From Nymphaea colorata (lineage: Eukaryota; Streptophyta; Magnoliopsida; Nymphaeales; Nymphaeaceae): DNA of 64,000 nt. Positions 6,713 to 45,121 of this stretch are shown piece by piece. Made by a program: the position numbers and the translations under genes. The stretch lies in contig NC_045145.1 of NCBI RefSeq assembly GCF_008831285.2, positions 18,784,802 to 18,848,801 of the forward strand, given 5' to 3'. Within the stretch, counting starts at the first letter, position 1; each line of letters begins with the position of its first letter. A model generated the notes under the pieces. The model did not search any database and had not been told where the DNA came from. It saw only the letters and a program-made list of their open reading frames with translations.

Positions 6713-6813
6713 GATTTGATGATGAGGAAGGAAGACGCAGAAGAAAGAATGGTGCGATGCTGATGTACGAGGGAGGCTTGATCAGATGATCAGTTTCGTT
6801 GCTCTTGCACTTG

Positions 6814-6822
6814 TTTTTTATA
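6814..6822 (-). promoter_or_regulatory. TATA box of FAR-A
   Basis: TATAAAAAA on the minus strand, about 100 nt above the FAR-A ATG. FAR-B, FAR-C and FAR-D have a TATA-like element at the matching distance from their MF/MS start, which supports both promoter and start. Confidence 0.65.
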
Positions 6823-6829
6823 GCACTTT

Positions 6830-8600
6830 CAATGCCTGGGAGCGGCGTGCTTGCATGTATGTTTATTTCATAGTTACTTGTTCAGTCATCACTTACTAAT
6901 AATATTATTATTTTGTTGTCCGCTAGAAATGATAAGGTCCTTATTCTTCCAACTTGGCACTGAAACCTTCGTCTGTGTTCGGCGAAAGTTCCCTGTTTTT
7001 TAAAGAATAGAAGAGCGATGACTATGTCGAGAAAAACACACGACCAAGACAAAGAATGAAATGGAAAGTTTCCCGTGATAGTCCTGCAGGTCTCACGCGT
7101 CCAAATTCTTCTATAGGTTTCCACCATTTATTAATTAAAAAATCACAAACAGAAGCAAAAAAAAAAAACTAAGTCACCCATATGGCAGGCAACCAAGAAG
7201 GTTATCGAAATATGAGAGAGCAACGATTTTCAACGAGCAACTCCTTCCCCAAAAGAAAGCCCCTCTTTAGATCCAAAAAGTTCATATTACTAAAAAATTT
7301 TCAAAATCTCAATGATTTCTCTCAATAATATTATTATTGATAGGACAATAATGCCTCCCCACCCTATGTAAACTCAATTACGAAAAAATTACATCAATAT
7401 TAGAGGTAAACCAAGGGAGCCTCAACTTTACGTATGACTTGAAATTTAAGCACTGATTTGTAATTCTTTCAATTACTTTTTATATATGTGCCTGTGGGAG
7501 GCATTTACGGACCCGCATCATTGAACGTATATAGCGGTGTTTCTCAAACTTTAAAAGAATGCAGAATTTTAAAGTCGTATTTTACTGCCTTCCCTGAAAT
7601 TCATGACTCGCATGCATGTGCTCCGAGGGATTTCTTGAGTTATTTTTTTTTTTGATCAGTTATGCAGGAGATCCTGGTAGCTGGAGACTCCCATCAACAT
7701 AAATATAGATCCAACAAGTATGATTGGTGCTTTTGTTTAGGTTTGATGGCCCCCAGATTTGAAGTCCATGGCTAGCACGGATCTTGAAACCGCGAATATC
7801 TAGTCCCACCTTCCCCCATCAGACCAAGTGTTCATGGCTTTTATAATGTAATATGGGTTCGAATGTGATCTGGAATGCATGGTTGTGACATCATCCACTG
7901 TGAAAAAAATTGCGTTGCTATTGGTTTCTTCTCGAATTTTGACAAATAAAATTAGTAATCAGAAAGATCTCCCGTCGTCCAGCATCTGTTGTTCGTTGAA
8001 CGCACTCGGCCACACCGTAATGTACTCATTTTCTTCTGAAAAATCCTTCGGCTACGTATATATCTAGCTTTTTGTAATTAACAACCTAAACGTAATTACT
8101 CAAATGGTGAGTGATCTATCGAAATCAATTTATTGCTCCCGGCCCTACTGGGGTTTCTTTTCTTAAAAGGTTCATTGTCAGTAAAAAAGAAAAAAAAAAG
8201 AAAAAAAGGGCAATATTTCATTTGTATTAAAACAGTAAAATTTTTTTCCTTAATTTTTGTGGCATTGAATGGTATTTTAATTTTTTTATATTAATCAAAT
8301 ATTTGTCAAAAAGAATTCAAAGTTTCAAGCATAATCGTTCTTTAAAATTAAGTCAAATTAAAATAAGTTTTGTAGCATCAACGAACGTCAAACAGTAGCA
8401 AACAGAATACCCAAAAGTTAACCTTTTGAGACATACGGCAGAAGTAATTTTTCCCAAGTAAACATTCAGAAAATACGTATTATAAAAGAAAAAAAAGGGT
8501 ACTTTTGTTAGAGTAATATGTATTATAAAAGAAAAGGAATGATACTTATTAAGAGACGACAATGTTTGGACACTGAAACTTTTGTTTTCAGAGCTCCAAG
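6830..8600. other. intergenic DNA, first copy of duplicated spacer
   Basis: No gene seen. From about 7,100 it matches 27,340-28,560 closely, including the AATATTATTATTGATAGGAC stretch. It is the left part of the tandem unit. The short open frames do not resemble known proteins and are not conserved as frames between the copies. Confidence 0.7.
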
Positions 8601-9724
8601 GCGTGCATGGCCTGTGATAGGGCTGGGCTAGGGAAGGGTCTGTCCTTTTTCACTAACCTGCCGGTGTAGACACCTAAGTAAAGAGAAAAGAGGTCATCTT
8701 TTTTTTTTCATTTATTTCCTTTTCTTTCTTCTACTATCATACCAACACTGTTCTCCTACTATTATATTAATATTTTTTTCTTTTGTTTCTTTCCCAATTT
8801 TTTCTTCTTTTGCTTTTCTTTCTCGTCGTACTTTCCCTTCATATACTGTTTTTTATATGCCTATATATACAGGTGCTCTCTGGGCAGCTCTAGGCCCCAA
8901 GAATTTTTTTTCCCTTTTTTCTCCATCTAATTTTACTTTTTTCGTTCTTTTTCCTTTTTTTTTTCTTTTCTTTTCATTCTTCATCTTCTTCCTTGTTATA
9001 TTTTTCCCTTTCATATACTGTTGTCTCCCTGCCTGGTGGGCCACTGCCGAGTCCCACCTAGTACTTTTGACTACTAAAGTAATGAAGTAAAAAAAGCCTT
9101 GTGATAGTACACAAACTATTGGATGAAAATGACGCGTATTTGCTACGGATATTATGCAGCTTGTGGATGTGGTTGCATGCTCAGGACCGTCCTCGAGAAC
9201 TTGTAATAAAAATTTCACCTCCACAACTTGGCTTTTGATGCGGACCATGAAATTGTAAACTTTAGCCATCATAATATGGCCACTGCAAAGAGGTGACAGG
9301 AGTAGCTGGTTAAAATAGAGCTGTAAAGTTTCTTACCCAGAAAGATGTTAATATCTTACTGAAAAAGGCAAGACTGAATTTAGTGCACAACCATCAATTG
9401 ACTTCTTTCTGTATCTCTTCCACTTGGGTTCTCATTTGATGTTCTTTTCCATATAAGCTTGTTTCTTATGTTAGATTTAGATTATATTATGAAGCCTCTA
9501 ACAAGGCCTGCATGTTCTCTTGGAATGATGCTCCAATTATAATGAGCGGTGATTGGATAATTTGTATTAAAAATGACTTTTTCCTTCAATTGCCTTTGTG
9601 GTTTTTTCCCTTTCTTGTTTTTGGGTTGACATCTTCAGCTTTTTACTGCAAGATAAAGTTTTACACGCAGGAAATTGTGTTTTTTCGGCATGATCTACTT
9701 TACAGAATGTGTCGATCTTGCCTT

Positions 9725-10162: not shown

Positions 10163-10526
10163 TAAAGAAATCAAAATTGCATATAGAAATACTCGAGACA
10201 ACAATATACGTGGTTTGGCATTTAAGTGCCTACATCCACAAGAAGGAGGAGCCCTATTTGAATATTGATTTTCTGCTACACTCGTTACATGATCAGCCAC
10301 CATTTTAATAGTGATTGTAAACAATGGTAACAAATGATGAATTTTGGCAAGCAACAGAGAGGAAAATATCAAGTTGGCAACCACTAGAATGGGCAACCAC
10401 CAAAGTCAGCAAGAATTGCCAAAACTTCTTCAAGAAGGTAATAACAGCTGCTATCAAAGGTAATGGCAATTGTCACCATGATTCATATTCCCAAACATAG
10501 AGTCTCCTAACGTTAAGCACTCAACA
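10163..10526 (-). repeat. 3' LTR of copia A
   Basis: Matches 11659-11975, but keeps about 50 bp (around 10,230-10,290) that the 5' LTR lacks. It begins TGTTGAG on the minus strand and ends in TTTCTTTA. Confidence 0.8.
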
Positions 10527-10527
10527 C

Positions 10528-11100
10528 TCCCCCTCAAGTTGTGAAGATTAATGATTCCCAAACCTATCATGGTGTCAGTTAACTTGTCTTTGGTAACAGA
10601 CTTGGTGAAGATGTCTACATGTTGATCCTCGCTTCTAACAAATGGTGTAACAATGTTTCCATTTAGAACTTTGTTATGAATAAAGTGACAATCAATTTCA
10701 CTGTGTTTTGTCAACTCATGAAAAACATACTTTGCAACTATATGAATTGTAGCTTGATTATCATCACCTTGAGCCAAGTAAGTTCATAAGTTGTAGTGGC
10801 CATAGCTCTATACTTTGCTTCTCGCTAGATCTAGAGACAACTTTTTGCTTTTTACTTTTTCATGAGACTAGATTTCCTCCAATGGTTACACAATAACCAG
10901 TGGTAGATCTTTTATCCAAATTACTGTCAGCCCAATCGTCATTTGAAAATGCTTTAATTGAAATATCCTTAATTCTTTTCATTCAAATGATAGCTCCCTT
11001 TAAGTATCTTAGAATGCGATTGATGGAGCGAAAATGAGTACTTTGAGGAGCATGCATATATTTACTCACTTCACTTACGGCATATGTTATATCTGGCTTG
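10528..11100 (-). pseudogene. copia A RNase H remnant
   Basis: The minus strand reads YVFHELTKHSEIDCHFIHNK, the C-terminal signature of copia RNase H. Broken sequence up to about 11,060 corresponds to the upstream part of that domain and the start of the post-RT region. Stops and frameshifts interrupt it. Confidence 0.65.
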
Positions 11101-11183
11101 GTGACTGTCAAATTTGAAATATTTTATCATTTTCTATGTTCTTTGCAAGAGTAGCCACATCAATAGCTGCAGGTGTATAAGAT

Positions 11184-11553
11184 CCTCATTCATCCCAAAG
11201 CGCACGTAACTGCTCAAGATATTCAGTATAAGACATGTCTTTTTGCTTTAAATTATTAATTTCCTGGGCAATCTGGTATCGTCTGGCAACATTATATTGC
11301 TGACTAAAAAGGACGCTAACAGCTTCCCATATCTCCTTTGCGGTTTCTAGAAAATAAAAGCTTTGGGCAATTTTATTGCCCATCCTTCTAGCCTCATATC
11401 TCCTTCTGGTGGCTTTGGTTTACTACATATTACATGACCAAGTTTTGCCTTTCCATTGAGGAATAATTTTGCAGACTTGGCCCATGTGAGGTAGTTGAAC
11501 CCATTCAGAGATTCAGTGGTAATTTTTAGTGCTAGATTAACACAGTCAAGCAT
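11184..11553 (-). pseudogene. copia A gag remnant
   Basis: The minus strand reads FNYLTWAKSAKLFLNGKAKL and, after a frame change near 11,370, KIAQSFYFLETAKEIWEAV. These are the UBN2-type gag motifs of copia elements. The same motifs occur in copia B (NYLAWSKSAMFYLSGKSKL, KIAQGFYFAETASQVW), but the two elements are clearly different families. Confidence 0.7.
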
Positions 11554-11658
11554 GTTGGTCTGCTATGATGGTTTGCAATATTGCTTCCCGAAGTTCCTCA
11601 TTCGGCCATGGAGAAAGAACAACAAAAGCTCAGGTATGAGAACCTATCTCTAATACCA

Positions 11659-11975
11659 TAAAGAAATCAAAACTGCATATAGAAATACTCTCGACAATAA
11701 TATACGTGGTTCGGCATTTAAGTGCTCAGCCACCATTTTTATAGTGAGTGTAAACAAGGGTAACAAATGATGAATTTTGGCAATCAACAAAAGAAGGAAA
11801 ATATCAAGTTGGCAACCACTAGAATGGGCAACCACCAAAGTCAAAGTCGGCAGGAATAGAGCCAGCACCAAAACTTCTTCAAGAAGGTAACGACTATTGC
11901 TATCAAAGGTAATGACAATTGTCACCACGAATCATATTGCCAAACATAGAGTCTCCATACGTTAACCGCTCAACA
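11659..11975 (-). repeat. 5' LTR of copia A
   Basis: Partner of 10163-10526. It abuts the primer-binding site and ends CTCAACA on the plus strand, followed by target duplication CCCAT. Confidence 0.8.
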
Positions 11976-12236
11976 CCCATTGTACCCTACACCGCATACT
12001 GTAATATTGTAGCATTGTGCTTTCACTGTTTAAGGTGATTTTTTTGTGTTTTATTTTATCTTATTGCCTCATTATCTTGTGTGTTGCCAATGCAGATAGT
12101 ATTAGGTGATCGGAGTGACCCGAAGATGTTCAAGTATATGGGCGCTACTTGCTTCAACCCAGGATCGTTTTCTAATGACAGTACATTTGTTGCCTATCGG
12201 CCTTGCACTCAGGAAGTTGAGCTCTCGTCCATATAG

Positions 12237-16600: not shown

Positions 16601-17975
16601 GCTTGCTTAGCATAAAAGCTTCATAAGAACTCCCGTGGACTTCCTTCAAACGCTTGAAGATCTCGGCATTGATTATCTTGTTAAAGAACGAAAGTTCTCA
16701 TCAATTTTCGTGAACGGAGATGCAAGGATCATGGCAATTTTTTCAATCGTTACATGCTGCTGGCCGCAAGTATAAAGATCGAAATGGTGGTGGGAGAAAT
16801 TTTAGTTCGTGCCATATGTAAGGCAATAAGTATTAAAAATTTTTTACATATTTTTTTTCTTGTATAGCTGCGTCTTTCTACCACGTGAACCCGTTCTTAG
16901 AAGTCCCGTAAACAATTTCTTTAAATTAAAGTGACAAGCTCACGACTTTATGCATTCAATAGAAAAGTACCTTTTTTAACATTTTAAAAGTAAAGCAGTT
17001 CATATTATATAAAGTAACTACGAACTTTTTATGATGATTATATTAAAATTCTATTCTTGGCAAAGGTAAAATAGTAAGGTAACTAAGTATTTTTTGATAA
17101 AAATTGTGCACATGGTGAAAATTAAATTAAAAAAAAAAAATGTGAAGAAGAGCCGCGAAGGGCCAAAACATGAAAATGGCTGACGATGGAAAGGAATAAA
17201 CAAAACAAAAGTACCGAAAGAAAGTTGAATAAGGATAAAGATGGAAAGAAAAGAACAGAAACATGAAAACATGAAGGAGAGGTTCCAAACATTAGGGGGG
17301 CTGTCTGTCTCTTACTAAATGGAGTGTTTCGTGTTAAGCTGTAAATCTGAGGGAGGGTAAGTGCCCACATGTAAACAAACAAAAAATAAACATACTTCGT
17401 GTCTTAATCTTTTGTTCACAGCCTCTTGGTTTGGCCCTTGAATGAGAAGGAAAAGCTTGCCCACGTCAGGCTGACTCCGGAGGATCTTCTCTATGAGCAC
17501 TGCATCATATCAAGCAAATATTAATTCTTAATCACAAGAGTTAAAACAACCGTAGGAACAAGTTAATGATTGTGAAAGTTATACGTTTTCCAACAAAGCC
17601 GGTTGTTCCTGTGATAAGCATGTTCTTATCTCGGAGGAACTCCTCGATCCCTAGACCACATTCGTCCTCTTCGTCTTCTTCAGCCACCTCCCTATCCTTC
17701 GGCGTCGTCAATATTCCTGCCCTTGTGACGACCAAATCTCTTTTCGATTGAGATGTGCACTTTCGGTCCGCCATTCTCACGAGCGGAGCTGGTTGCGTGA
17801 TTTTGAGCGGGAAAGAATTGAAGATGCAAGAGGCCGGCTGTGGTGTGGACGACCGGAGATGATGGGCAGGGATGATGAAGCTAACGGAATAATTCGCAGG
17901 CACTTGATTAGCTGCTAGACGTGTAGCATTCATTGTGGGAGGAGACATGAAAGAAAGGTGCCCTAAGCTAAACAT
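13679..17975 (-). CDS. MS2: FAR-B: MS2/FAR2-type fatty acyl-CoA reductase, nine exons, intact
   Basis: Exons: 17585-17975, 17396-17499, 16477-16676, 16290-16390, 15974-16184, 14577-14738, 14414-14495, 13982-14325, 13679-13838. All junctions are GT-AG and the frame is open, giving 584 aa. The NAD(P) motif ITGTTGFVGK ends at K130 and the catalytic pair is Y346/K350 (VYSFTKAMGE). The C-terminus has NVHIPGLRKH, the MS2-clade form. An in-frame ATG at 18053 would give 610 aa, but a TATA box at 18062-18069 lies 9 nt above it. Transcription would start below that ATG, so I chose the ATG at 17975, which gives MFSLGH, like FAR-A and FAR-D. The Ser/Thr-rich N-terminus suggests plastid import. With FAR-A it is one of two copies that could make a full enzyme. 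Confidence 0.87.
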
Positions 17976-18069: not shown

Positions 18070-19870
18070 GCAGTTTCAACGCCAGCGGCATGCTATAGGA
18101 TGGATGATTTTCTATTTTTCTTTTGGGTGTACGGTAGGTAGATCCATTCATTCTTGCCACCATTATTATATTTTTCTGCAGCTCTCATGAGAGGACCTTG
18201 TTCTTTCCATCTTTTAAGCACAAATAGGAGCGACGATGATAATGGGAACGTAGATTGAAATCAAAAGGGCAACTGTGCGCGGGTCAAATCAGAGCGCTTA
18301 AAAAATTAACGGCGAGTGACAAGATTTAATTAACGAAGCTGGTTATGTACGTTCTACTGGTGCACACCGCTGCTAAAATTTCATGCGCCATTTTGATTAA
18401 TGACGAAAATATCTTCATTTAATAGGAAAAAAAAACCTTCTTTGGAGGACAAAACCAAATCATAAAAGGACTTAAAAGACATTTTCTTTAATAATTTTCA
18501 AAATGCCATGGACAGTTTTTCTTTTGGCGCATGTTTGTTTTAATAATTGTTGTAAAAAAATCGTTTAAATTATTTCCTTTTTCATTATTTTTTTAATACT
18601 TACAGAACAAAAAATGAAATTTTATGATCATTAAAAAGGGAGGGTGGGGGACAATTTTTCAAATCCCCAACCACCCCCACCCGCAGTGAAAACCACCACT
18701 TCAAGCGGCAGTCCACCAGTTCAAGGAATCGGGTTTCTTGGTAACTATGGGCAAACTTAGCGGGGTCAAGAACCAGTTTGGCTTTGGGCCCTTTCCCGTG
18801 GTTGTCCCAATAGCGGCCCCACTTGCCGGTTAGTCCATACCAACTTATCAAAAGTTAAATTTAGATCAATCTATACTTATATCTGTTAAAATGCTTTTTA
18901 ATAAAAAATTTTAGCTCTGCACACTCTACAACTCGGCCGCTTAAGACTAAACCAGCCAAACTCCAGCTCATCAAATTTTAATTTCACATGACTTCTAAGC
19001 CCAAGACCTTGTATTTATTTGGGCACCTAAAACAGTGTGCTGAGTCTGGAAAATGGTTTTCCTGTTTGCCTTGAGATATTTTTGCTACCCTAGTTTTGGG
19101 TCCCTTGAGATATTTCTATAGGTCTCCTCCATTTATTAATTAAACAATTAAAAAATGTCAGAATTTGTCAATAAAACAATAAAAAAAGTCACAAACAGAG
19201 GCTTCGCTTACACAGGCAGACAACCACTTACTACCCCATTCAATGTGCCGAGTTCATTGAAAATTAGGGATGGTAATGGATCGGACACGAATTAGATATA
19301 TTCTTAAACGTGAAATATTTATATTTGGATTCGAATTCAAATATAGATAAACAAAAGTTTTATCCGAATCCAAAACCCTATTTCACAAACTAAATCTATT
19401 CATATCTAAATTCAAATCTAAATATGAAGCAATTGTATGTCATTAGTGCTGACCATACAAAAAGTTGTGTCATTAATATTTCATTAAAGATCATAAAGAA
19501 AGTTAATTTCAATGACCATTCATTACCTTCTTTCAGAAAGCACTAGAAACTTCAAATTGGTGAAACTTCTAGCTCATTTTTAAAATGTAAGAGCATTAGA
19601 TATAGGATGTTTGTTTAAAAATACATTCGATCCGAATCCGAACTAATGTGATTTCTCTCAACAATGTAATGGCTCCCATTAATGCAAACTCAATTATGAA
19701 AAAATTGCATATGGGTAGCAGTAACAACGCTGCACTCGACTTTTGAAGGCAAACAAAGGTGTCCTCAACATGAAGGACAACCCAGTCCACCAATTGGGCA
19801 CCACCAGTTTGTGGACTAAACATGCTAACAACGTGACCGCATTAATGGTTGAGAGGAACGCAAATAATTA
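18070..19870. other. FAR-B upstream region and spacer, no gene
   Basis: The first 250 bp is promoter sequence shared with FAR-C (to about 39,400). About 19,265-19,640 is an A/T-rich repeat built on GGATTCGAATTC / ATCCGAATCC words, probably an old DNA element; a diverged partner starts at about 39,908. No coding exon is recognised. Confidence 0.55.
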
Positions 19871-19873
19871 ACT

Positions 19874-21110
19874 GACCTTTCGTCAAACGACAGCTCACAA
19901 TCACGTCAACTTCGTCCACGATATCTGCATAAAGAGTTGGGCGCTGATTATCTAGCTACAGACAGAAACGTCTCGTCAATTTCTCTGAATGGAAATGCAA
20001 GAAAGTTGTCACAATTTGCGTCATCATTTGCCAAATTGATTCCATAAGCCAACAAATACTACATTGTTTTTCTTTTTTTTTTTTTCCTTTTTTCTTTGTA
20101 TATATCCAACATTTTCTTAATAAAACATAAAAAGATAAAAGGGGATTTAAGATGCCGGCGCTTTCAGAAAATTAGTTTGGCAGGTACTTTGTTTAAACTA
20201 AAATGACGAGATAATGACTGCACCAAAATAAAAGGTATGATGAAAATCAAAATTCAAAAAATGTGCATAAAAAACAATTGAGGGGTGTGTATATATATAT
20301 ATATATATAGATATAGGGAGAGAGAGTGAATGAGTGAGCGAGTGAGAGAGAGAGGAAAATAACCTTAACATAAGTCCAACAAAAAATTGAACCTGAAAAG
20401 AATGTTGCATCTAAAAGTCCACTCTTAATTCTTGTAAGAAGTTGAAGATACAACCATTCCCCCACAAGTTAAGAGAAATTAACGAGACATCATACAAAAT
20501 GATGGATGTCATGCACACAAGAAAGAGAAAGAGAGAAATTAGTGAATTTGAAACCATTTTGGTCACTGACAAGAAACCATATCTAAAGTTTTTGTTACAA
20601 ATGTTTCTAAACAATTATGAGAATTTAATATAATTTAATTAAAGCAGTTGTGATGAACTATATGTTTATAGAAACTAATTTAATATAAAGCATGTTTTAA
20701 TTCAAATAGTTATGAGTGGCGCAGTTCCAAACATTTTGGGGCTGTCTTACTAAATAGAGCGTTTCGAAAGAATTGGCAAACAAAAATAAACATACTTCTT
20801 TAACACTTCAATGAGAGTCTCTACAAACTCAACCCACTTCCAGTTCCGGCTCCTGGTTTGGCAGATTCCAACCCACCCCCTTAGCAGTTTCGATTCAAAT
20901 CCTGAAAAGGCGAGGAACTAGGACAACAATGTCATTAATAGCCTCCCTTTATAAGCCCTTGAAGATCATTCACAATTTTCATACATGACTAAACACTTGA
21001 AGATCCTTCACAATTTTCATACATGACTAAATTTCTAGGATGTTACAGTCTCTTCCTTTGTTCCTTGAACGAGAATGAAAAGCTGGGTGACTCGGGAGTA
21101 TCTTCTGCTA
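19874..21110 (-). pseudogene. relic G: degraded FAR exons 2 and 3
   Basis: 19,874-19,955 keeps both ends of FAR exon 3 (ATAATC after the acceptor, and a VDVIVSC-like stretch) with the middle deleted. About 21,046-21,110 keeps an exon 2 remnant reading TQLFILVQGTKEE where intact copies read GKLFLLIQGPNQEA. Intron 2 sequence next to exon 2 (CCAAACATT...GGGGCTGTCTTACTAAAT) is at about 20,728. The exons are in the right order on the minus strand, with later insertions between them. No counterpart is seen in the second unit. Confidence 0.6.
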
Positions 21111-21229
21111 ATTAAGAGGGAACTATATAAAAAGTGACAAGCTATATCGAAACAAGTCCACTCGCACTTGAAACCCCTTGAACCTTTTTGAGACGACATG
21201 GGCGATCGATCACACAAGCCCACTTCGGA

Positions 21230-23709
21230 TGCGAGTTATACTGAAAGCAGGATCCTCAACGTTAGTTTTGAATACTATCGACACACAGGGATTGTTCGGC
21301 AAACTATAGAAAAAATGTTACATTCTGCGATTAACCTACCAAAAAGTTAGGATAGATTCATACGCCGATATAATATAATATTTGATGAATCTACCATAAT
21401 TATTTGATTGGGAGCAAAAGCAAAAGCAGATATTTGGGAAAGACAGTAAATGGTGGGACATCGAAGCACGCTAGATCAGTTGAAGCCAAAGCAAGGGCAA
21501 GCGAACCTGGATTTTTTGTAAAGATAAAAATGAAAATAGAAAAAATAAAAAAATAAAAAGACAAAAAGAACATTTCTTTTTTTAAAATTACGTAAATGTC
21601 CCTGCACTCTTATTGCATATGTTAGTTGCGTGCAGCTATATTTTTTTAACATAAATTTTTTTTTTTTTAATATAATGTACATTTTTTATAATAAAATATA
21701 CATTATTATTAAATAAAAATAATATGACAAAATAAATCGAATTGAATCTGCCCCCATCAGGTACATTATTGGGTCCGATGCCCAAGCTTACAGCCATGCC
21801 GTGGGTGCTTCAGGTCCGTAGTTCCACAACCCATTGCCGCTGTGCTGCAATCTTAGGAAACCCACCTTTAGACGACGGAGACCAGCGAAGCTCGGGTTTA
21901 TCAAATTTTAATCGAACTCGAGTTCGATACATGAGAGTTTCGAGTTCAAGACCTTGAATTTGGGTTCCCTATACTACTGCGCCGGTTAAAGAATAAAAAA
22001 AAAAGTGATCACGAGCGAGCATTAAACTTGTATATTGGCACCAAACAGGACAAATTATTGCCGTCCAATGTTCAGCCATGGATAAATATTTTCCTTTCCG
22101 GCCAAGCAATCTCCATGCCATTTTGTCCACCGATGGATGTGAATCCGAATATTTTTAAGTATTTTTGGAGACCCAATTATGTCACTGACAAATGAGTAAG
22201 GGGCACAGCTTAAGTGGTTGGGTAGATCATAGGTATTGAGAGGTACTATTGTTATCGCTGACACTCATGGAGCTAATTGAATGCATAAAAATCACTGATT
22301 GGCCAGGCAGCTCGAGTGGGTGCGACTCAGCCTGATGATTCATTTATAATATTATTTTATTTAAAAATATACATACGTCTTATTGTAATATATATATATA
22401 TATATATATATATAATCAAAATTGCAGGCAGTTTGGGCTGGGCCTCGGTTTCTTTCATGGGCCGGCTGCACCCCAGCCCTATGGCCAGTCGTAGGTCCCA
22501 TGGATGAGATAAGAAAATTTTGAAAGATCAGATTACACTAGAATTAGAGGTGTCCATGAATGTTACTTAGACATAAAAAAGATATGGGTATTTTTGCTAG
22601 CTTTTAATCACGTATACTACATCCATAATTTTAGAGTGTAACTGAAGCATTATTTTAGTGTTACTATCAGGTTACATCGACCGCATCCTCACAATTTCCC
22701 CACCCCAGACCTACTTGCTTCTATACACACCACTTGGCTTTGTATTTAACGTTGAAGCTCATCTGAACACTTTAATGTATCTTGTTGCGTTCATATGTTC
22801 TTCGAATCCTACTGCAGTTATTTTGGTTCTTGTACTAAGAAAACTCGTCATTGTTGGTTATTTATCTATTTGGTGTGGTTATTTATTTAATTTCTGTAAA
22901 TTTGGAAAATCTGGAAATATATTTTTTTATCATCAAACATAGAAATATATTTCTGAAAATATATTTCTCAATCATCACACACATATCAAAATAGAAATCA
23001 AAAAGATTTTTCTCATTCCATTTTTCCAAGAAATATATTTTCAGAAATATATTTTCAAGCCATCAAACGGCCCTATAATGAAAATCTCTCCTTAAAGTTA
23101 CTCAATAGTTAATTTGTAAAGTCCAATTCGTTGTGGCCAAAATGGGAATCTTGGAGCAGGTGATTGAAATCGCATCAATGCCCATTTTATTTCGTCGTGG
23201 TATAATTCGCTAGTGAGACGTTCCATATTTTGTTGATTTCCCTGTTTCATTTAACTGTAATGAAGTTATTTGTGGCTCTGTAGTTTCTTACAGAGATACA
23301 TCGTTGGAGGCCATCTTTTAACGGCAATGTATTATATGAGCCAGAGACTCCACTTAGCCTGCAAAGGCTTCCCTAATGTACCACTTTGCTAAAACAATTA
23401 AAAAAGCATGAGATAACTTTATTTTTAAAAGGAGCGTTTGAGATGATAAAAATAAAAATAGTTTTGCATCGTAAACACCATTTCAAGTAAGCTGGGCTAT
23501 ATGAAAACTGAGTATGAGTTTGCCAAAACTTAATCAGGGGATGTTTGGATGACACGACAAATCTAATTTTTAGAGGTGCAATTGAATGATGTCCAAAATA
23601 AGTTTTGCCAAAAAAAGGTGCTTTAGTCCTAATACTCAGACAAGCGTTTGTTTGTTGCAAAGCTTGTCTTTTAAAAAGAAACGAGTAACCGGACACCCCT
23701 AGAATGTTC

Positions 23710-23762
<53 letters not shown>

Positions 23763-24146: not shown

Positions 24147-24261
24147 ACATGTAAGCAAAGGTACATGGATTTGTTAGTTTTTTGAATAGTAATCACATTG
24201 GGACAATTCGATCAGTCCTTAGAGTGTAATTGACCCATTATTTTAGTGTTACCAAGTCAAA

Positions 24262-26770: not shown

Positions 26771-26817
26771 CTAGAAGGCCGAGAGAATGCTTTATTTTAC
26801 ATACATAGCTATGGAAA

Positions 26818-28800: not shown

Positions 28801-30154
28801 AGATGATAATGTTTGGCCGCTGAAACTTTGGTTTTCAGAAATCCAAGGTGTGCATGGCCGGTGATAGGGCTGGGCTAGGGAAGGGTCCCTCCTTTTTCAC
28901 TAAGCTGCCGGTGTAGGCACCTAAGTAAAGAGAAAAGAGGTCATCTTTTCTTCTTTCATTTATTTCCTTTTCCTTCTTCTACTATCACACCAACACTGTT
29001 CTTCTACTATTATATTAATAATTTTTTATTTTGTTTCATTTTTTTTGTTTTGCTTTTTTTTCTTCCCCTTCTTTCTCGTGGTAGTTTCCCTTCATATACT
29101 GTTTTTTATATGCCTATATATACAGGTGCTCCCTGGGCAGTTCTAGGGCCTAAGAATTTTTTTTCCCTTCTCTCTCCGTCTAATTTTACTTTCTTCGTTC
29201 TTTTTCTTTTGTTTTTTTCCTTAGTTTTCTTTTTTTTTTTTTCTTTTCATTCTTCATCTTCTTCCTTGTTATATTTTCCCATTTCATATACTGTTGTCTC
29301 CCTGCCTTGGCTTGCCTGGTGGGCCACCGCCGAGTCCCACCTCGTACTTCTGACTACTAAAGTAATGAGTACAAAGGCCTTGTGATGGTACACAAACTAT
29401 TGGATGAAAATGTCGGCGTATTTGCTACGGATGTTTACATAAGAAACATCTAGTCTTAAAGGTGAAATGAATATTCAGCTCAGTTGACGACAAAAATCGC
29501 AAGTGAATTTAGGTTAAGCAGTGAAGGCTGAAAAGAAATATAAAAAAGTTAAATCACATTGTTGACTGTATCTGCTGTCCAAGTATCCCAATTTTTTTAG
29601 CATATCATCTGTGTGGATAAGCATGGATAAGCTTGCAAAGAAAAATGTCTGTTGTTATAGCTGAAGCATAATGCAGATTATTATGCAGCTTGTGGGTGTG
29701 GTTGCATGCTCCTCCACTTGGGTTCTCATTTGATATTCTTTTCCATATAAGCTTGTTTCTTATGTTAGATTTTGATTATATTATGAAGCCTCTAATAAGG
29801 CCTGCATGTTCGCTTGGAATGATGCTCCGATCATAATGAGCGGTGATTGGATAATTTGGATTGAAAATGACTTTTTCCTCCAATTGCCTTTGTGGTTTTT
29901 TCCCTTTCTTGTTTCCAGGTTGACATTTTCGGCTTTTTACTACAGCATAAAGTTCTACATGCAGGAAATTGTGTTTTTTCGGCATGATCTACTCTACAGA
30001 ATGTGTTGATCTTGCCTTATTCCTCCTACAAAGGATGAGACAGATGATCCTTTGAGCATGTAAAGTTTCCTTCTGTTGTAGTTGCAATATTCTTTCCTAA
30101 ACAGAACCTCTAATGAAAGCATCTTTGTTTGATGCAGCTTGTTGTTACCATTGC

Positions 30155-30462
30155 TGTTGTAAGGAAAGGATATTTCACCAACGTCTACCAAAATTATAGC
30201 AAGTTGTTGAAGGCGATCTTGCCTTATCTAGATTTTCCTTATCTAACTTTCCTTCCTCGTTTTTCTTGCCCTGTTATGGATGAGTCATCCAATCTGGAAA
30301 ATAGCTGTTAACATGACGTTGGGACCTTACCTTGTATCATTATAAGGCCTGTGTATTTGGTAAAAGGAATATAGTGAGTGAGAGTTTTCTTCTCTCGTGG
30401 ATGTAGGCCAATGGTTGAACCACGTTAAATTTCCATCTTCTTTTCTTCTTAACATTCCAACA
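30155..30462 (+). repeat. 5' LTR of copia B
   Basis: 308 bp, starting TGTTGTAAGG and ending CATTCCAACA. Confidence 0.9.
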
Positions 30463-30474
30463 TGGTATCAGAGC
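30463..30474 (+). other. copia B primer-binding site
   Basis: TGGTATCAGAGC, the complement of the plant initiator-Met tRNA 3' region used by most copia elements, directly after the LTR. Confidence 0.9.
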
Positions 30475-30520
30475 ATTAGGTGTGTTCCTTCTTCTTCCTG
30501 GCTGTTACAGGCACTTCTCC

Positions 30521-32602
30521 ATGGCCCAGATGATGGAGAAAATTGTGGTTCAAGAACACTCAAATCCGGGCAACAAAATCACCTTCGCTTTGCTAAATGG
30601 CTCAAATTACTTGGCTTGGTCCAAGTCGGCTATGTTCTACCTCAGTGGCAAATCGAAGCTGGACTATGTCAACGATGATCTTCCCAAGCCCAATGAGAAC
30701 GACTCATCCTACAAGGAATGGAGATCCAATAATCATCTTGTCATGTCTTGGCTCCTCAATTCCATGGAGCCCAAGATTGCGCAGGGATTCTATTTTGCTG
30801 AAACTGCGTCTCAAGTGTGGAAGAAGGCCAAGGATCTATATGGCGAAAAAAATCAACTTGCTCACATGTTTCACCTGTCCCAAAGCATTAGGGCTGCACA
30901 CGAGCCGAGTCGAGCTCGAGCTTGCCCAGCTCGAGCTCGACTCGACTCAACGAGCTCGAACTCGACTCGAACTCGAGTCGAGCTACCTAACACAAGCTCG
31001 AGCTCGACTTGATTAAATAAAGTCGAGCTCGAGCTCGACTCGATTAACTCGATTAGCTCATCTAAATAAAATATGATCATTCTTTTTAAAATATCTAGTA
31101 AATTTCATGACGTGGGATGAAATTTGTGAATCACTCAACCGAGTCAACCCTGCCAACAGTTTAGAGCTGCAAATAGACACCATTTGGTATTAGACTGTTC
31201 TCATTATTAACTATTATAGAATCATAAGCTGATGACTGAACAAAATGGAAATAGGACATAATGTATATAAACGAGTCGAGTCGAGTATAAACGAGTAGAG
31301 TTCTTAAAACTCGAACTCGACTCGTTTACTCATTCGAGTTTCATTGTAAGCTCGAACTCGACTCGTTTATAAACGAGTCGAGCTCGAGCCGAGTTTAACC
31401 GGGCGAGTTCGAGTCGAGCCCGAGCTGGCTCGACTCGTTGTGCAGCCCTACAAAGCATCCACAACACAAGAAAGGATAGTCAATCTCTTAGCAAGTGTTT
31501 CGGGGAACTACAGGGAAAATGGGACGAGCTGGACTATCTTATGGCCATGTCCCAAAGATTGAGCTCAAAAGAAAAGATTCGTGAATAGCAAAAAATATTT
31601 GAACTTCTAGCCAGTCTCGGACCCGAGTATGAATCTACAAGGAAGCATATTCTTATGTCTCCTATTCCTTTGCCCCTATCTACGATATGTTCTCTTCTCT
31701 TAAGTGGTGAATCTAGAAAACTTGTGATGAATTCTTCGTCTGGAACTAGTGAAATAGAACAAACCGAAAGGACTGCCTTCATTGCAAACAACTTCAGTAC
31801 TCAAGATGTTAAGGGTAGAACCAGACCCAAACGATTCTGCACTTACTGCAAAAAGGATGGTCACACTCGTGACCGTTGCTGGGATATTTATGGGAGACCT
31901 AATGACAGAAAGAGGGTTGACAAACCTAAGGATGCTACACCAAGTGCCAAAGTCGCCACAACAAATGAAAAATCAGACACTCTGGATCTTCCTATAATTC
32001 TAGGAAAAATCAATGAACTGCTTCAAAGTGTCAAAGGAACTCAATTTGTTGTTGCTGCCTCAGCCCAGTTAAACTCTGCAGCAGAAAACAAAGGTATGCT
32101 CATCCCTAACCGGTGGATTGTCGATTCAGGGGCCAGCGAACATATGATCATGAATAGCTCTATTTTACGTGATATTACTCCTCCACGAAAATACACTACT
32201 GTTACTATAGCCAATGGGTCGCACATAAATGTTGAAAGTATTAGAAATTTACGGTTCTTTGATTCCTCTGACACTTCCAAGGTCCTATACATGCCTGATC
32301 TGTCCTCTAATCTACTAACTGTCTCCAAAATCACTAGAGACCTGAATTGTGAGGTTATTTTTTCACCTTCTAATGTGATACTTCAGGACATAGTGACAAA
32401 GAAGAAGATTGGTGAAGGTCACATGGACCGTGGCCTCTACATTTTAGAAGACAAAATGCAAGCTCTCTCGGCAATGGTGCAAGACGATGGCTCAATGTGG
32501 CACCAATGCCTCGGACATATTTCGAGTAGACCTTTAAAAATTTTATTTCCTAGTATGCAATTTGATTCCGACCTTTGTGAGAATGCAAAGAGGCAAAAAT
32601 GA
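30521..32602 (+). pseudogene. copia B gag-protease frame, interrupted
   Basis: Starts at ATG 30521. Gag motifs NYLAWSKSAMFYLSGKSKL and KIAQGFYFAETASQVW are followed by the MITE insertion (30889-31450). MITE plus target duplication is 570 bp, a multiple of three, so the frame resumes. A TAG at 31586-31588 breaks gag. A CCHC zinc knuckle (CTYCKKDGHTRDRC) is near 31,840 and the protease site DSGASEHM near 32,125. A pre-integrase motif (MWHQCLGH) precedes the TGA at 32600-32602, where integrase continues in another frame. Confidence 0.85.
30889..31450. mobile_element. hAT-like MITE nested in copia B gag
   Basis: 562 bp with perfect 12-bp terminal inverted repeats TAGGGCTGCACA / TGTGCAGCCCTA. It is flanked by exact 8-bp duplications CAAAGCAT (30881-30888 and 31451-31458). 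The TAGGG start and 8-bp duplication are hAT hallmarks. The interior has no coding capacity. Both arms are packed with CGAGTCGAGCTCG words, so the element can form a long imperfect hairpin. Confidence 0.88.
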
Positions 32603-32638
32603 CAAGATGACCTTTTTCTCACTCTGAAAGCAAGTCTA

Positions 32639-33396
32639 GTGTTCCTTTTGAGTTAATTCACTCTGATGTGTCGGGCCCTGTGCCTATGGATTCTTATTCC
32701 AATTTCAAACATTATGTGTTATTCATTGATGACTTTTCCCTTTTCACTTGGATTTATTTATTAAAGTCCAAAGATGATGTGTTTTCCAAGTTCAAGGAAT
32801 TATACAAGTTGATTGAAGTCCAGTATGGAGCACATGTTAAAATTTTTCGGTCTGACAATGAGACAGAATTTAAAAATCACCAGTTTGATATCTTTGAGAA
32901 GGAACATGGTATTATTCATCAGTATTCATGTGTTAGAACGCTCCAGCAAAATGGTGTCTCCGAACGAAAAAATAGACGAATTCAAGAGGTAACAAGATCT
33001 CTCTTGTTTCAAATGAATATGCCCAAGTGTTTTTGGAGTGATGTTGTACTTACGGCGTGTTATATTATAAATCGCTCTCCCTCAAAGGGGCTACATGGTA
33101 AGGCACCTCTTGAAGTGTTAGTGCAAAGAAAATTAAACATCTCTCACATGCGTGTTTTTGGGTGCACAATATACGTAAAAAATTCAGAGGGCGACAAATT
33201 AAGTCCTAGAGCTACTAAATGTGTTTTCCTAGGTTACTCATCCTCAAAAAAGGTGTACAAGTGCTATGATGTTAAGAATAGTCGTCTGTTCATTTCTCGT
33301 GATGTGGTGTTTCATGAAAAAACTCCCTTCTTTCACCCTATTGATTATGTTGGGCGGGGGAGGAAGCTTCACACAACCTTGTTCAACCTTGTATAG
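32639..33396 (+). pseudogene. copia B integrase
   Basis: In a different frame from gag-protease, indicating indels near 32,595-32,620. The DDE catalytic triad positions are visible: D in LIHSDVSGP, D in FRSDNETEF (usually SDNGTEF, so G is changed to E) and E in QQNGVSERKNR. The downstream stretch VFGCTIYVKN...KCVFLGYSS is the copia integrase C-terminal region. The frame stops at 33394-33396, where reverse transcriptase would normally begin. Confidence 0.85.
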
Positions 33397-33456
33397 ACGA
33401 CTACAAGGAATTTGATGTTGTGATTTCTACTCATCATTCAGCTGATCAGTCAACAT

Positions 33457-34053
33457 ATGCATGCTCCAAAACCGGGACACGTTAAAATGGTGGATCAAAT
33501 TTTGAGATATCTAAAGAAAACTGCCGGTCAGGAACTGTGGTATAAAATAAATGGAAACATTGACATCAAGGGCTATTTTGACGCAGATTGGGCAGGAGGA
33601 GTGGATAGAAAATCTATAACAGGCTATTGTGTATTTCTTAGAGGCAATTTAGTTTCATGGAAAAGTAAGAAACAAAACATTGTTTCAAGGTCAAGCGTAG
33701 AAGCTGAATACATATCTATGGCTACTGCTGCTAGCAAACTCATTTGGGTAAAGAATTTCATTCAAGAACTTGGCTTCAAGGTTGATTATCCTATTCCTAT
33801 GTTTTGTGACAATCTGGCTGCCATTCACATTGCTGCAAATTCGGTATTTCATGAACGAACAAAGCATTTGGAAATTGACTGCCATTATGTAAGGGAAAAA
33901 GTGCAAAAGAAAGATATATGTACCCCCTATAGCAAGAGTTGCAATCAATTGGCTGATGGTCTTACCAAGGGACTCACGATCAAGCATTTTAATGAAATCA
34001 AAGTCAAGTGGGGCTGCTGGAATCTTTATGCCACACTTGAGGGGGAGTGTTGA
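33457..34053 (+). pseudogene. copia B RNase H
   Basis: Starts MHAPKPGHVKMVDQILRYLK, the segment that follows reverse transcriptase in copia polyproteins. It contains GYFDADWAG, DRKSITGYCVF, SRSSVEAEYISMA, CDNLAAIHIAANSVFHERTK and LADGLTK. The open frame ends at the TGA formed at the 3' LTR boundary. Reverse transcriptase (YVDD-type motif) is missing between 33,396 and 33,457. Confidence 0.88.
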
Positions 34054-34383
34054 AAGGAAATGATATTTCACCAACGTCTACCAAAATTATAGGAAGTTGT
34101 TGAAGGCGATCTTGCCTTATCAAGATTTTCCTTATCTAACTTTCCTTCCTCGTTTTTCTTGCTCTGTTGTTTTTCTTGCTCTGTTATGGATGAGTCATCC
34201 AATCTGGAAAATAGCTGTTAACGTGTTTATCTTTACACGTTGGGACCTTACCTTGTATCATTATAAGGCCTATGTATTTGGTAAAAGGAATATAGTGAGT
34301 GAGAGTTTTCTTCTCTCCTGGATGTAGGCCAGTGGCCGGACCACGTTAAATTTCCATCTTCTTTTCTTCTTAACATTCCAACA
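34048..34383 (+). repeat. 3' LTR of copia B
   Basis: 336 bp; 28 bp longer than the 5' LTR because of a 17-bp and an 11-bp indel. It follows the polypurine tract CTTGAGGGGGAG. Confidence 0.9.
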
Positions 34384-34718
34384 ATTGCTCATCAAAGTCA
34401 TCTCTGCCCTTTGCCACTGACTGTACAACCAATAATTTGGAACTATGACCACTGTATCCGATTGTACCCTACACCGCATACGGCAATATTGTAACATTGT
34501 GCTTTCACAGTTTAACTTGATTCTTTTGTGTTTTTCTTTATCTTATTGCCTCTTTATCTTGTTTGTCGCCAATGCAGATAGTATTAGGTGATCGGAGTGA
34601 CCAGAAGATGTTCAAGTATATGGGCACTACTTGCCTCAACCCAGGATCGTTTTCTAATGACAGTACATTTGTTCCCTATCGGCCTTGCACTTAGGAAGTT
34701 GAGCTCTCGTCCTTATAG

Positions 34719-40140: not shown

Positions 40141-40149
40141 AAACGAGTT

Positions 40150-41582
40150 TCCGTCAGATGTGAAGAAGTTCGTTGGCCTTTCTTGTAGTAGACAATGATC
40201 GGGCTTGCCATCCTAGATGTTTCTGCTTTACATTCAAATAAGTGTTGGGTCTTATGAAAAGCGGCAAACTTGAGTCCTTTAATCCACTCTAGAAAGGGGT
40301 CTTGGATTGTGCTCTCAATACAATTACTTTCCATTGGGCTCTCACCACTGGTTTTGTGAAAGAACACAACATTTTGTCAAGATGAAGGTGATAGGGGTCT
40401 CTGAAATGGATTCTCCAATCACTGAAAGTGGTCAAATGGGTAAACATGAAAAGATGAAAACAAGAAGTGAAAGTTGCCAATCTCCCTTGCTAGGTTTTAG
40501 GATTGCTTTGGTTCGTGGGTATGCACTTCAACTCCAGTGTTTTGCGTGCTACCATTTATAGTTCAAACGAGCATATATAATATTCAACTTGAGTGTTATA
40601 CATGTCACCGACATCTATAGGGATCAAATTGATGAGACATTAAAGAAAGCGACACAACAGGCGAATCTGGTTATATGCATCACATTGGTGCATGAATTTT
40701 AGTGCACCAACATGATTAATGACTAAAATACCCTTAGTTCACCCTTGAAAAAAACTTTTTATTAAAATGAAAATGAAAGAAAGTAAAATGACTATAGAGG
40801 ATATTTCTTTTTTAACAAATTACCAAAATATCTTTTCCTTTTACTTTGTACAAAGCGCACGGCGCATGCAACTTTCTCTCCTCAACAGGTAGCGGGACAG
40901 GAGAGAAAAGGGAGGGAAGGAGAATAAAGGGGTTAAATATCAACCAAGCTGATCCTCGGCATTGGCAAATTTTTATCTTGCGGTTACCATTTCCTTGTCA
41001 CCAAATTTTCACTTTCAAGATTAGCTTTGGCTTATAAATTTTTTTAAGAAAAAAAAACGCCTTTCTATGATTTTCTGATCGAATTGAGGCCGATGGAGAC
41101 GAACGCCACATTCTCCGAATAATTAACGGACCTTCCATCAAACCTTGTGTTTGCAGCGCGGCTTACAATCACCGTGATCACGTCAACTTTTTAATCCACT
41201 AACAATGAGCCGTCAACGACAAGTCCAACTACTTGACAACCTTGCTTAGCATAAAAGCATTTTTGGAACTCCCGTCCATTCGTATCAGACCCTTGATTCT
41301 TGAATAGTTCTCCGTCGATTTTTTGGGTGAGCGGGAGGTGAACCCCCACCGCCCAAGCAAGACCCGAAGGTCCCCCCATTTTCCATGTCTTCGGGGTTCT
41401 AGGCTGCGTCGGTGTTAGCAATAGCAGCGGTGCACCCTTCAGCTTGGATGTCGCGCCCTACCGCCTTAAGACACAGGAACATAGTGCCCACGAAAATCGA
41501 ATTAGGAACTTGCCTTAATACATGCCCCTAGCTCGACCAGCTACGCTATGCCCCTTGAGGCGAAGAGTTCTGCGTCGATTAT
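40150..41582 (-). pseudogene. relic F: degraded FAR exons 7, 6 and 3 with a SINE in exon 3
   Basis: About 40,150-40,215 is exon 7 (MASPIIVYYKKGQ), 40,262-40,380 is exon 6 (FHKTSGE...STIQDPFLEWIKGLK), and 41,132-41,582 is exon 3 split by the SINE. They are in correct order on the minus strand with exons 4, 5, 8 and 9 missing and frames broken. It is the second-unit partner of relic F' at 24,262-25,512. Confidence 0.7.
41321..41561 (-). mobile_element. tRNA-derived SINE with 19-bp target duplication
   Basis: 241 bp on the minus strand. Near its 5' end is TAGCGTAGCTGG (41537-41548), an exact match to the pol III box A consensus. A weaker box B (ATTCGATTTTC, 41492-41502) follows. The 3' end is CCCAAAAAA. 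Target duplications GAATAGTTCTCCGTCGATT (41302-41320) and GAAGAGTTCTGCGTCGATT (41562-41580) match at 17 of 19 positions. The first-unit copy has the site once, uninterrupted, at 25492-25510. I do not recognise the SINE family. Confidence 0.82.
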
Positions 41583-42313
41583 CTAGTTAAAGAACAAAAG
41601 GTTCCATCAATTTCTCTCAATGGAAATGCAAGAAAGTTGTCACAATTTGGGTTATCCTGTGCTGCTGGCAAATATTTTGGTTTTCTCTGCCCTTCCTGCT
41701 GCTCATCTTGTCTCGATCTCATGTCTCATTTTGTCTTTGCCCTTGGATTGCGCAGCGGTCTCCTGGTACTCTCTCAACGAATGCAAGGGATGGAGCCCGA
41801 CCTCCAGTACTAGGGTTGCTGTGGAACCGTGTTGGGTCTCTATTTACCGCACAATTTTGCATAAAATGTCAATCATTGTTTACAGAAAACACATTTGAAA
41901 AAAAAAAAGAACACATATAATACTCAAAAATAAGTCAACTGTATAAAATGGTAATTAGATGCATCTTTTTTAAAAAAAAGTTAAAAAATTAAAAAAATGT
42001 GAAAATAACGCGTATAATACGTGTTTTGGCGCTTTTTGTATTTTCTTATTAATTTTTTTTATAGTTTTAGGATTTATTAAATTTTTTAAAATTTTGTTAG
42101 ATTTTCACGAAATATATAAATTTCTCACTGTACAATACTCAAACACAATATATATAACAAAGATGCATAAAATTACACAAAGGCACTCTACATATAAGCA
42201 ATCAGAGACATATGAAAACAAATAGACATAATGTATATATATATATATAAGGCATTTTTTTTATCCCTCTATGCCCATCTTTTGATGACTTTAAGATCAG
42301 CTATATATTTCGC
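41583..42313. other. spacer downstream of FAR-D, no gene
   Basis: Matches 25,513-25,983, with an extra A/T-rich stretch at about 41,900-42,150 that the first unit lacks. No gene. Confidence 0.6.
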
Positions 42314-42607
42314 TCAAGCATAGCCACGAATGACATGCTTCCGAAGGCCATGAAGGTGCTCGTTGACAATGTAATCCCTCCATTCGATCGCTGCCACATC
42401 AAATGTGAAGTTCATTATCTCCTCTCGAGACATTTCCTTCATCAATTTTTTGTCATTGGCGATATCAAACCTGCAATTCATCAATCATATGAAAATCCAC
42501 TTTTTCCATTTTAATTATTGCAGTGAAAGAAGCATGTAGTGGTTCATACATATGTGTGAGTGAGTGGATTGATTTACTTGAACACCTTACCTTCCTTTGT
42601 AACTTGT

Positions 42608-45121
42608 CTATGGCGCGTATGCCATCGATAACTTTTTTAACATCATGTTCGTGCCCTTCACTTCTTTTGAGCTACCATTCCTCTCAGCTGACAAATGTGA
42701 AGATATGGCTGCCAGTGTGTCGAAGAGCTTCACCCTCTCCACTCGAACCGCTTTTCCTTGTGAATCAATGAAAGGAAAGGAGTGATAGTGCTCATAACAG
42801 TGTTCAAACAGCTCATCCCATCGTAAGGGGTTTATGGAACTTGTTCCGGTGTGATAAATGTTCAGCCCTGCAACACCTGACGATCCATGCCTTGCTATTG
42901 CAGCCAAGATTGCGTTTACGACCATGTCTGCAGGCACCTAAAATGATTACATATACAACCTGAACATTAGTTTTGTGCCAAGTTGAAAGAGAGAGAGATC
43001 AGAGAGAGAGATGGGTACCAAGTCAGCAATCGTTTCTCCTCCTGCCGTGAAGAAGTTCAGTCGGCCTTTCCCGTAGTAGACCATAATCGGGTCTAGCATC
43101 CTAGAAGGCCGAGAGAATGCTTTATTTTACATACATAGCTATGGAAATATTTCCATAAGTGGAGGAGACATCTTATCTTACCTGAGTCCTTGAATCCACC
43201 CTGGGAATGGGTCTTGGATTGTGCTTCCAACAATGCTGGGCCGAACAATTATTGTTGGGATGTCGTTGGACATGGTTCCGATCACCATCTCTCCCATTGC
43301 TTTTGTGAAGGAATAAACATTATCCCAACCATGGACATTTGCCCTGCTCCATCCACCAAACCCTTGATGCTTAGAAACCGAGTGGGAGAGGGGAGAGAAA
43401 GAGAGGGACAGGCATGCATGACCGTTTTCGTTACCTTTTGAGGCCCAAATCTTTCATTCTTGGAGTTGCCATGCTTTCTTCTAACCCTTTCAGAGTGTCG
43501 TCTATCATCTTGACTTCTTCTCGAATATCCAAGATGGGTGGAGTTTCTTCAGATTGTGTTGCCATGGCTTCCTCCCGTGCTAAGCTATCCCCAAATATGA
43601 ACGGCCTTTCCTTTATCAGTCCAATTCTCGCTCCATGTACATAAGCTGGAATGTGAATAAGAATTAGAATTAAGTCTGAGAGGAAAATATTTGGTTCCCC
43701 AATATGCACACACCCTGTTGCTGCCGAAGTTGGAGGGCATGTATTCTGTGAAAATAATTGAAATGGTATTGCTGTAGATTGTGTTCAACCCATTTACACC
43801 CTCGCTATATAGCTACGCAGAATGTTCAATAACAGATCAGAGTTGTAGTACAACCTGTGGAGACATGCAGGAAGACCTGAAGTTTCCTGCATCTTCTTGC
43901 GAGCTTTACAAGCCTGGACATGCCATTTGTGTTTGTACTCATAGCAACATCATACCTGTGTGTTCAGTTAAAGTTTTAGATGAAACAGAGAAAAAATTGA
44001 GGAGCAGATAGATATTCATGAACGCCACACGTATTCTGCAAAGTACTGACCTTTCATCAAACCTTGTGTTTGCAGCGCAACTTATAATTAGGTGAACTTG
44101 GTCTTCAATAACCTTTTCGATCTTTTCCTCCATTCCCAATGAGTCCTCTTCGAGATGTCCAGCTACCGGGATCAGCTTGCTCAGCATAAAAGCTTCGTAA
44201 GAACTCCCGTGGATTCGCTTCAAACACTTGAAGAGTTTAGCATTGATTATCTAGTTAAAGAACGAAAGGTTCCATCAGTTTCCGTGAATGCATATGCCAG
44301 ATCCTCACGATGTGGTCAACTAATGCTGCTGGCAAAGAGAATGAAGACAGAGATGACGGTGGCAGAAATTTTATATATAGATCTAACGGGCACAAGCGAC
44401 TAGTTCAGTTGGAGCAAATTAATACCATCATCAAGCCAACAAATATAATGGCTGTGTCTCTCTAAACTGAGTAATATTCGGCATTAAGCTGTAAATGCGA
44501 AGGTGGGAACGTGAGCATGCAGACAAAAAAGAACATACTTCCTTTTTTAGTCTTTCAATCACAGCCTCGTGGTTTGGACCTTGAATTAGAAGAAAAAGCT
44601 TGCCAACGTCAGGCTGACTCCGGAGTATCTTCTCTATAAGCACTGCATCACATCCAGTTGCTAATTATTTCTTAATGGCAAGGTGCACGTAGAGCAAGTT
44701 CTGTAGAAAAGCTAATGATAACCAAGTTCTTGAATGCGAGAGTTATACGTTTTCCAAGAAATCCGGTCGTCCCTGTGATAAGCATGTTCTTATTTCTGAG
44801 GAAGGACACAATTCCAAGACCACAGCCATCCGCTTCTTCAGCCAAAGCGCTCTCGTTCTGCGTCAAAGGTGCAGCCCTCGTCGCCACCGAAGCTCTTTTC
44901 GATCCCGACGGCCACTTTCCGGCATCAACCATGCTCACCGTGGAAGTCGGTTCTGAGCTTTTGACTGGGAAGAAAGATTTGGACATGGCGCATGAAGGCA
45001 GCTGGTGTGGTGTAGTGGACGATGGGAGAGGGAGAATGACGACGGAAGGCCTTTGCTTAGTTGTTAGGCAAGCATTCGTTGGGAGAGAAGACATGAAAGG
45101 AAGATGGCCTAAGCTGAACAT
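42608..45121 (-). CDS. FAR-D: MS2-type fatty acyl-CoA reductase truncated by an in-frame TAG
   Basis: Exons: 44749-45121, 44539-44642, 44051-44250, 43855-43955, 43435-43645, 43182-43343, 43019-43100, 42591-42937, 42314-42470. Splice sites and phases are all good, and the full length would be 578 aa. In exon 8 the codon that is TAT or TAC in FAR-A and FAR-B (YEPYT) is TAG (42608-42610), codon 521, so the product is 520 aa. It keeps the NAD(P) motif ITGTTGFLGK and Y340/K344 but loses most of the C-terminal end of FAR_C. The frame after the stop stays open to the natural TGA at 42314-42316, ending EHLHGLRKHVIRGYA, so the mutation looks young. A TATA box is present. It may be a recent pseudogene or a truncated enzyme. 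The upstream alternative start is GTG and was rejected. Confidence 0.8.

Follow-up and report, generated by a model that had tools for sequence, protein, structure and literature searches.

We find that a cluster of fatty acyl-CoA reductase (FAR) genes, carried on the minus strand of a 64,000-nt stretch of DNA (the window; 38.9% G+C), holds a seam at position 26,817, where intron 6 sequence of one gene, FAR-D, abuts a FAR 5' leader next to a truncated copy, psi-FAR-E (psi-E, or E). Judging from its genes and retroelements, the DNA looks plant-derived. An earlier sequence-only reading had taken 26,817 for the still readable junction of a tandem segmental duplication, with one breakpoint in the leader of another gene, FAR-A, and the other in intron 6 of FAR-D. 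The tandem duplication is real and well supported, and FAR-D intron 6 is physically joined to a leader. The divergence of the sequences, however, does not support 26,817 as a preserved duplication junction, since neither flank is of the age required: a preserved junction should show about 9% divergence on both sides, whereas we find 0 differences in 863 positions on the left (to FAR-D) and about 29% on the right (to FAR-A). The most likely reading of the join is a secondary event that came later, and on balance we favor two events of different age, an old duplication and, much later, a repair at E that used FAR-D as template.

The FAR copies and the seam are as follows.

2228..6712, minus strand: FAR-A, 9 exons with GT-AG introns, intact frame, 581 aa
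13679..17975, minus strand: FAR-B, 9 exons with GT-AG introns, intact frame, 584 aa
35180..39168, minus strand: FAR-C, pseudogene with in-frame stops in exons 1 and 5
42314..45121, minus strand: FAR-D, 9 exons, premature TAG at 42608-42610 in exon 8 (codon 521 of 579)
25955..26817, minus strand: psi-FAR-E, exons 9-7, identical to FAR-D 42285-43147, TAG at 26278-26280
26817..26819: seam, FAR-D intron 6 sequence abutting a FAR 5' leader, 0-1 bp between
26819..27355, minus strand: E leader and upstream sequence, B/C-like, branching outside the B/C split

Among these five FARs, the frame is intact in A and B only. Both are predicted fatty acyl-CoA reductases by domain content, as in a Pfam scan their NAD_binding_4 and Sterile domains lie beyond the curated cut-offs (PF07993, E 6.8e-72, and PF03015, E 4e-13, in FAR-A; PF07993, E 2e-72, and PF03015, E 2.5e-14, in FAR-B). 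The long N-terminal stretch preceding the domain presumably points to the FAR2/MS2-like type. In FAR-C, a search up to 8 bp from where the borders of intron 8 should lie gave no GT-AG pair.

An old tandem duplication

A spacer, a DPB2 last exon, FAR-B or FAR-C, a FAR relic (relic F) and a FAR 3' end are present as two adjacent sets in the same order and orientation. Self-comparison places them in a collinear series on one strand, from 7,110/27,356 to 26,817/43,147, and thus bears out both the repeated order of parts and the diagonal that the sequence-only reading had anticipated. The offset varies between 15.7 and 24.3 kb, from 20.2 kb at the left end, through 20.1-24.3 kb in the central part, to 15.7-16.3 kb at the right end. 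The parts of the two units are:

7110..9153: unit 1 spacer, where unit-level homology begins; partner 27356-29435
27356..29435: unit 2 spacer, partner of 7110-9153
12096..12236, plus strand: DPB2 last-exon fragment of unit 1, from a weak PDB match and our assumption
34578..34718, plus strand: DPB2 last-exon fragment of unit 2, with an in-frame stop
19423..24267: stretch of about 4.8 kb without counterpart in unit 2
24984..25824, minus strand: relic F of unit 1, a FAR exon 3 remnant (tblastn), 85-94% identical block by block to 40673-41873
40673..41873, minus strand: relic F of unit 2, DNA match to that of unit 1

Apart from the tract identical to FAR-D, the units are 91.2% identical, with 740 differences in 8,388 aligned columns (14 blocks, the last of which contains the tract); as the blocks were picked by BLAST, this identity is slightly overstated. 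An alternative set of 18 blocks, 17 excluding the tract, gives 758 differing columns out of 8,441. Stretches without a chained match are excluded from the 14-block count, namely both retroelements described below, the 4.8 kb, about 285 bp adjoining FAR-D and small matches such as 9150-9182, 15043-15218 and 24267-24339. The 285 bp (41874-42162) are AT-rich and have no counterpart beside psi-E.

The stretch found in unit 1 only, noticed earlier as about 4 kb, contains a weak FAR relic at 19932-21112, comprising exon 2 and the border of intron 2 and exon 3 and recognized by collinear DNA matches to FAR-C (exon 2 match, E 0.047). Given this collinear relic, we disfavor a simple insertion into unit 1 and regard loss from unit 2 as likelier. 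Other FAR copies have left remnants at 19.9-21.1 kb (weak), 24.3-25.8 kb and 40.2-41.9 kb, and exon 6-7 remnants are also present in unit 2 at 40173-40319. To the left of FAR-A, 1,299-1,839 and 1,879-1,980 are 71-76% identical to the spacer and to the stretch following DPB2; we regard these similarities as remains of an earlier copy of the duplicated unit. The name DPB2 is one that we assume from a weak PDB match to residues 479-522 of 527 of Pol epsilon subunit 2 (E 0.98); a Pfam scan of the fragment gave no match.

The left flank of the seam is too young

As described earlier, psi-E consists of exons 7-9 alone of a nine-exon gene, and its homology to FAR-D ends exactly at 26,817, leader-type sequence beginning by about 26,819. 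From 25,955 to 26,817 psi-E is identical to FAR-D 42,285-43,147 at 863 of 863 positions, about 277 of which are non-exon, where about 76 differences would be expected at unit divergence. The shared sequence includes the premature TAG of exon 8 (26278-26280 in psi-E, 42608-42610 in FAR-D). In the 864-column block that aligns E with D, the lone difference is the first base, 25954. Any other stretch of 863 columns of the unit holds at least 27 differences, and the next longest identical runs measure 228, 210 and 172. The longest identical run in 5,000 column permutations was 195, a figure that presumes equal site rates, which is untrue of exons versus introns. Over the same gene span, 58 of 837 positions distinguish FAR-B from FAR-C. 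Just past the left edge of the tract, divergence between E and D is back at 6-9%, with 11 differences in 121 positions and 20 in 311. An identity step thus stands on the homologous, left side of the seam and a non-homologous join on its right; by comparison with A, 0-1 bp lie between the joined sequences.

This tract continues leftwards into a flank specific to E, 86-94% identical to the FAR-D side, and rightwards into a leader that is likewise specific to E. These neighbors speak against an assembly artefact, by which FAR-D sequence would have been misplaced or polished into the E locus. A mis-join could yield perfect identity with a sharp seam; the error, however, would have had to respect homology on one side, and we consider it improbable.

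Two retroelements provide further rungs for dating.

30155..34383, plus strand: copia-like element of unit 2, long terminal repeats (LTRs) 30155-30462 and 34048-34383, target duplication ATTGC
10164..11975, minus strand: degenerate copia-like element of unit 1, with empty-site-like sequence near 34458 in unit 2

The first is an LTR retrotransposon, having an LTR pair, a 5-bp target duplication and an integrase domain (Pol_BBD, SH3_retrovirus and rve lie beyond the Pfam cut-off), and the corresponding site in unit 1 is clean and empty, with a single ATTGC. The copia label, primer site and purine tract are our assumptions from the sequence and the Pfam names. The LTRs of this element differ by 12 substitutions in 308 positions (3.9%); their BLAST identity of 88% was dropped as a measure of age since indels depress it, and substitutions alone were used. 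In the second element the left end is truncated, so that its target duplication is approximate only, and the LTRs show 9 differences in 121 columns covering part of the LTR. We take its minus orientation from the resemblance of its reading frame. Given an empty site in the opposite unit, which in the case of the unit 1 element is only apparent, both insertions are younger than the duplication.

The resulting ladder descends from about 9% between the units, through 3.9% between the LTRs of unit 2, to 0 of 863 in the tract shared by E and D. The tract is younger than the unit 2 element, and this element is younger than the duplication. The ladder speaks strongly against exons 7-9 of psi-E simply dating from the duplication.

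The right flank of the seam is too old

Homology between the units had been thought to begin at 6,763/26,822; it starts at 7,110/27,356, from where the spacers on the A and E sides are 92.5% identical (1,959 aligned columns). Between the seam and this point, the E leader matches that of FAR-A at 71% (110 columns; A 6,760-6,868). A search of both strands of 7,110-64,000 at E 0.1 gives no match to FAR-A 6,869-7,109, which has one 23-bp match on the opposite strand at 1,392-1,414 (E 0.012). The leader that follows the seam had been called FAR-A-like. It is a FAR leader and contains a short A-like piece, but as a whole it is closer to B and C (82% over 139 columns), and the trees agree. In a five-way alignment its identity is 63.5% to A (104 columns), 76.4% to each of B and C and 61.2% to D, and upstream blocks of FAR-B, with fewer from FAR-C, continue in order along E to 27,415. 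Trees place E next to B+C with ultrafast bootstrap (UFBoot) support of 75 for the core and 99 for a longer stretch, and outside the B/C split, B+C being supported at 86 and 74, respectively. Since the trees put it outside that split, the E leader is probably older than the split of B and C, hence older than the duplication. A duplicate of the FAR-D leader was ruled out as its source (61% over 85 columns); the sequence upstream of D (45,101-48,800) has three weak matches only within 1-45,100.

Speculatively, this leader may derive from an additional FAR gene that formerly lay left of the spacer, the duplication having arisen by unequal crossover between that gene and one of FAR-D type. In the two-event reading that we favor, the original join of the duplication lies somewhere within 25,955-27,356, where it is no longer legible for certain.

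A proposed later repair at E

The point of FAR-D that corresponds to the seam, 43147, lies 1 bp off the center of a palindrome in intron 6.

43140..43157: palindrome TATGGAAATATTTCCATA, 18 bp, perfect, in FAR-D intron 6

The window holds 360 perfect palindromes of at least 16 bp, 7 of which pass a filter against plain TA, one of these still being mostly TA.

The following order of events would account for the locus. An old tandem duplication of the block from the spacer upstream of FAR-A (7,110) to a FAR-D-type gene would have produced units 1 and 2. Much later, repair of a break at E would have used FAR-D as template: the left end, lying in the homologous 3' flank, may have entered FAR-D and copied it from exon 9 to intron 6, giving the 863 identical bp, until copying halted near the center of TATGGAAATATTTCCATA and the copied end was end-joined to the leader remaining at E. 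As a result E would lack exons 1-6, either lost then or never restored, and would have received the premature stop from FAR-D. One repair event thus accounts for tract and seam together. The duplication, the identity step, the seam, the common stop and the position of the palindrome are observed; the break, the D-to-E direction, the end joining and a once fuller E gene we infer. In its most specific form, which we put forward tentatively, psi-E may be a half-homologous, half-illegitimate repair product, in which a copy of FAR-D stopped at the palindrome center and was joined to the leader of a now-missing FAR lineage, spreading a nonsense mutation to a second gene copy.

Several points weigh against the repair at E as described. 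The palindrome was spotted post hoc, so that a hairpin stop is no more than plausible. No gene of the window readily supplies the E leader: B/C come closest, but it branches outside the pair, and A and D lack it today. The 32 bp beside the seam (6,767-6,798 in A) are 93.75% identical to A, and a conversion tract may also stop exactly at an older seam, homology ending there.

The last two of these points suit a modified form of the earlier model. Here the junction between FAR-D intron 6 and a FAR leader would stem directly from the duplication, a recent conversion between psi-E and FAR-D would have reached that old seam exactly, and the leader of FAR-A would have been replaced later. The end of the tract coincides with the end of homology, as if heterology had halted the conversion, the order of parts agrees, the piece at the seam is A-like, and exchange seems to be recurrent at the locus. 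Against this stand the two events needed on top of the duplication, the identity of 71% between the A and E leaders as opposed to 92.5% in the spacer from 7,110, and the clustering of the E leader with B/C. We consider this course of events doubtful.

Recurrent exchange is suggested by two further tracts, with flanks differing at 6-18%.

17296..17769 and 38489-38962: candidate conversion tract between FAR-B and FAR-C, exon 1 to intron 2
7298..7641 and 27541-27884: candidate older conversion tract between the spacers

FAR-B and FAR-C differ at 2 of 474 positions in the first (flanks 18/100 and 23/206), and the spacers at 2 of 344 in the second (left flank 28/184, right flank 41/716). With the 0 of 863 at E and D, set against 91.2% identity outside that main tract, divergence along the unit is not uniform, as expected if conversion came after the duplication.

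As for the direction of copying, an already truncated psi-E could have overwritten exons 7-9 of FAR-D, its premature stop disabling FAR-D; in accordance, the sole lesion found in FAR-D sits within the tract and is common to psi-E. A single lesion, however, is too few to carry weight. For exons 7-9 the ratio of nonsynonymous to synonymous substitution rates (dN/dS) is 0.30 for A-D, 0.29 for B-D, 0.275 for A-B and 0.80 for B-C, values that rest on about 450 nonsynonymous sites and, for B-C, on 11 synonymous differences, a further weakness of the repair reading. Given that the tract lineage resembles the intact pair A-B, unlike B-C, it shows no sign of long unconstrained evolution, and FAR-D appears the likelier donor. 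Overwriting of FAR-D by psi-E is, to our judgment, very improbable.

Other features of the window

A plus-strand gene for a pyridoxal-dependent decarboxylase lies at about 48912-52950, with PF00282 matched in both reading frames scanned (51177-51605 and 52423-52950); we assume its first part and its identity as a glutamate decarboxylase. An (AT)n run of 223 bp occupies 58912-59134. An Rfam search returned nothing at gathering threshold across the window.

Comparison with known systems

Seams between paralogs are easily mistaken for duplication breakpoints. In this window the ages of both flanks can be measured against the units, the retroelement LTRs and the paralogs, and an old duplication can be separated from a recent repair scar; the tracts also suggest that exchange has happened more than once in this FAR cluster, where two of the five copies still have an intact frame. 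The parts and processes seen at the locus are already known. Among the papers listed by a literature search none describes the locus itself, which is a weak negative. Reportedly, Puchta observed in 1998, in plant cells, one-sided invasion with synthesis-dependent strand annealing (SDSA) completed by end joining.

In the parts available to us, a review (PMC4617055) and a gene-targeting study (PMC5895730) describe one-sided repair completed by end joining in plants, and the former states that plant SDSA can begin at one end and finish via end joining. The likeness to the present locus lies in homologous entry on one side, a non-homologous join on the other and a copied template; in those sources the process is a repair model or a gene-targeting outcome, whereas here it is deduced at a locus found in nature. 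Interlocus gene conversion, as covered in the available part of PMC3924818, likewise leaves long tracts of identity between diverged paralogs. The typical mean tract given there is of the order of 10-100 bp, with another estimate above 1 kb; the 863 bp found here exceed the typical mean, and one end of the tract is a structural seam. The nearest gene family parallel is the FAR2-like tandem expansion of Chardonnay grapevine, an array that, like the present one, consists of tandem plant FAR copies including a pseudogene (PMC6279053, available in part). Its extra open reading frames are 93-94% and its ortholog 98% identical to the Pinot gene, and the expansion is termed a tandem duplication. The available portion of that report describes no mosaic seam in the Chardonnay array, in contrast to the locus described here.

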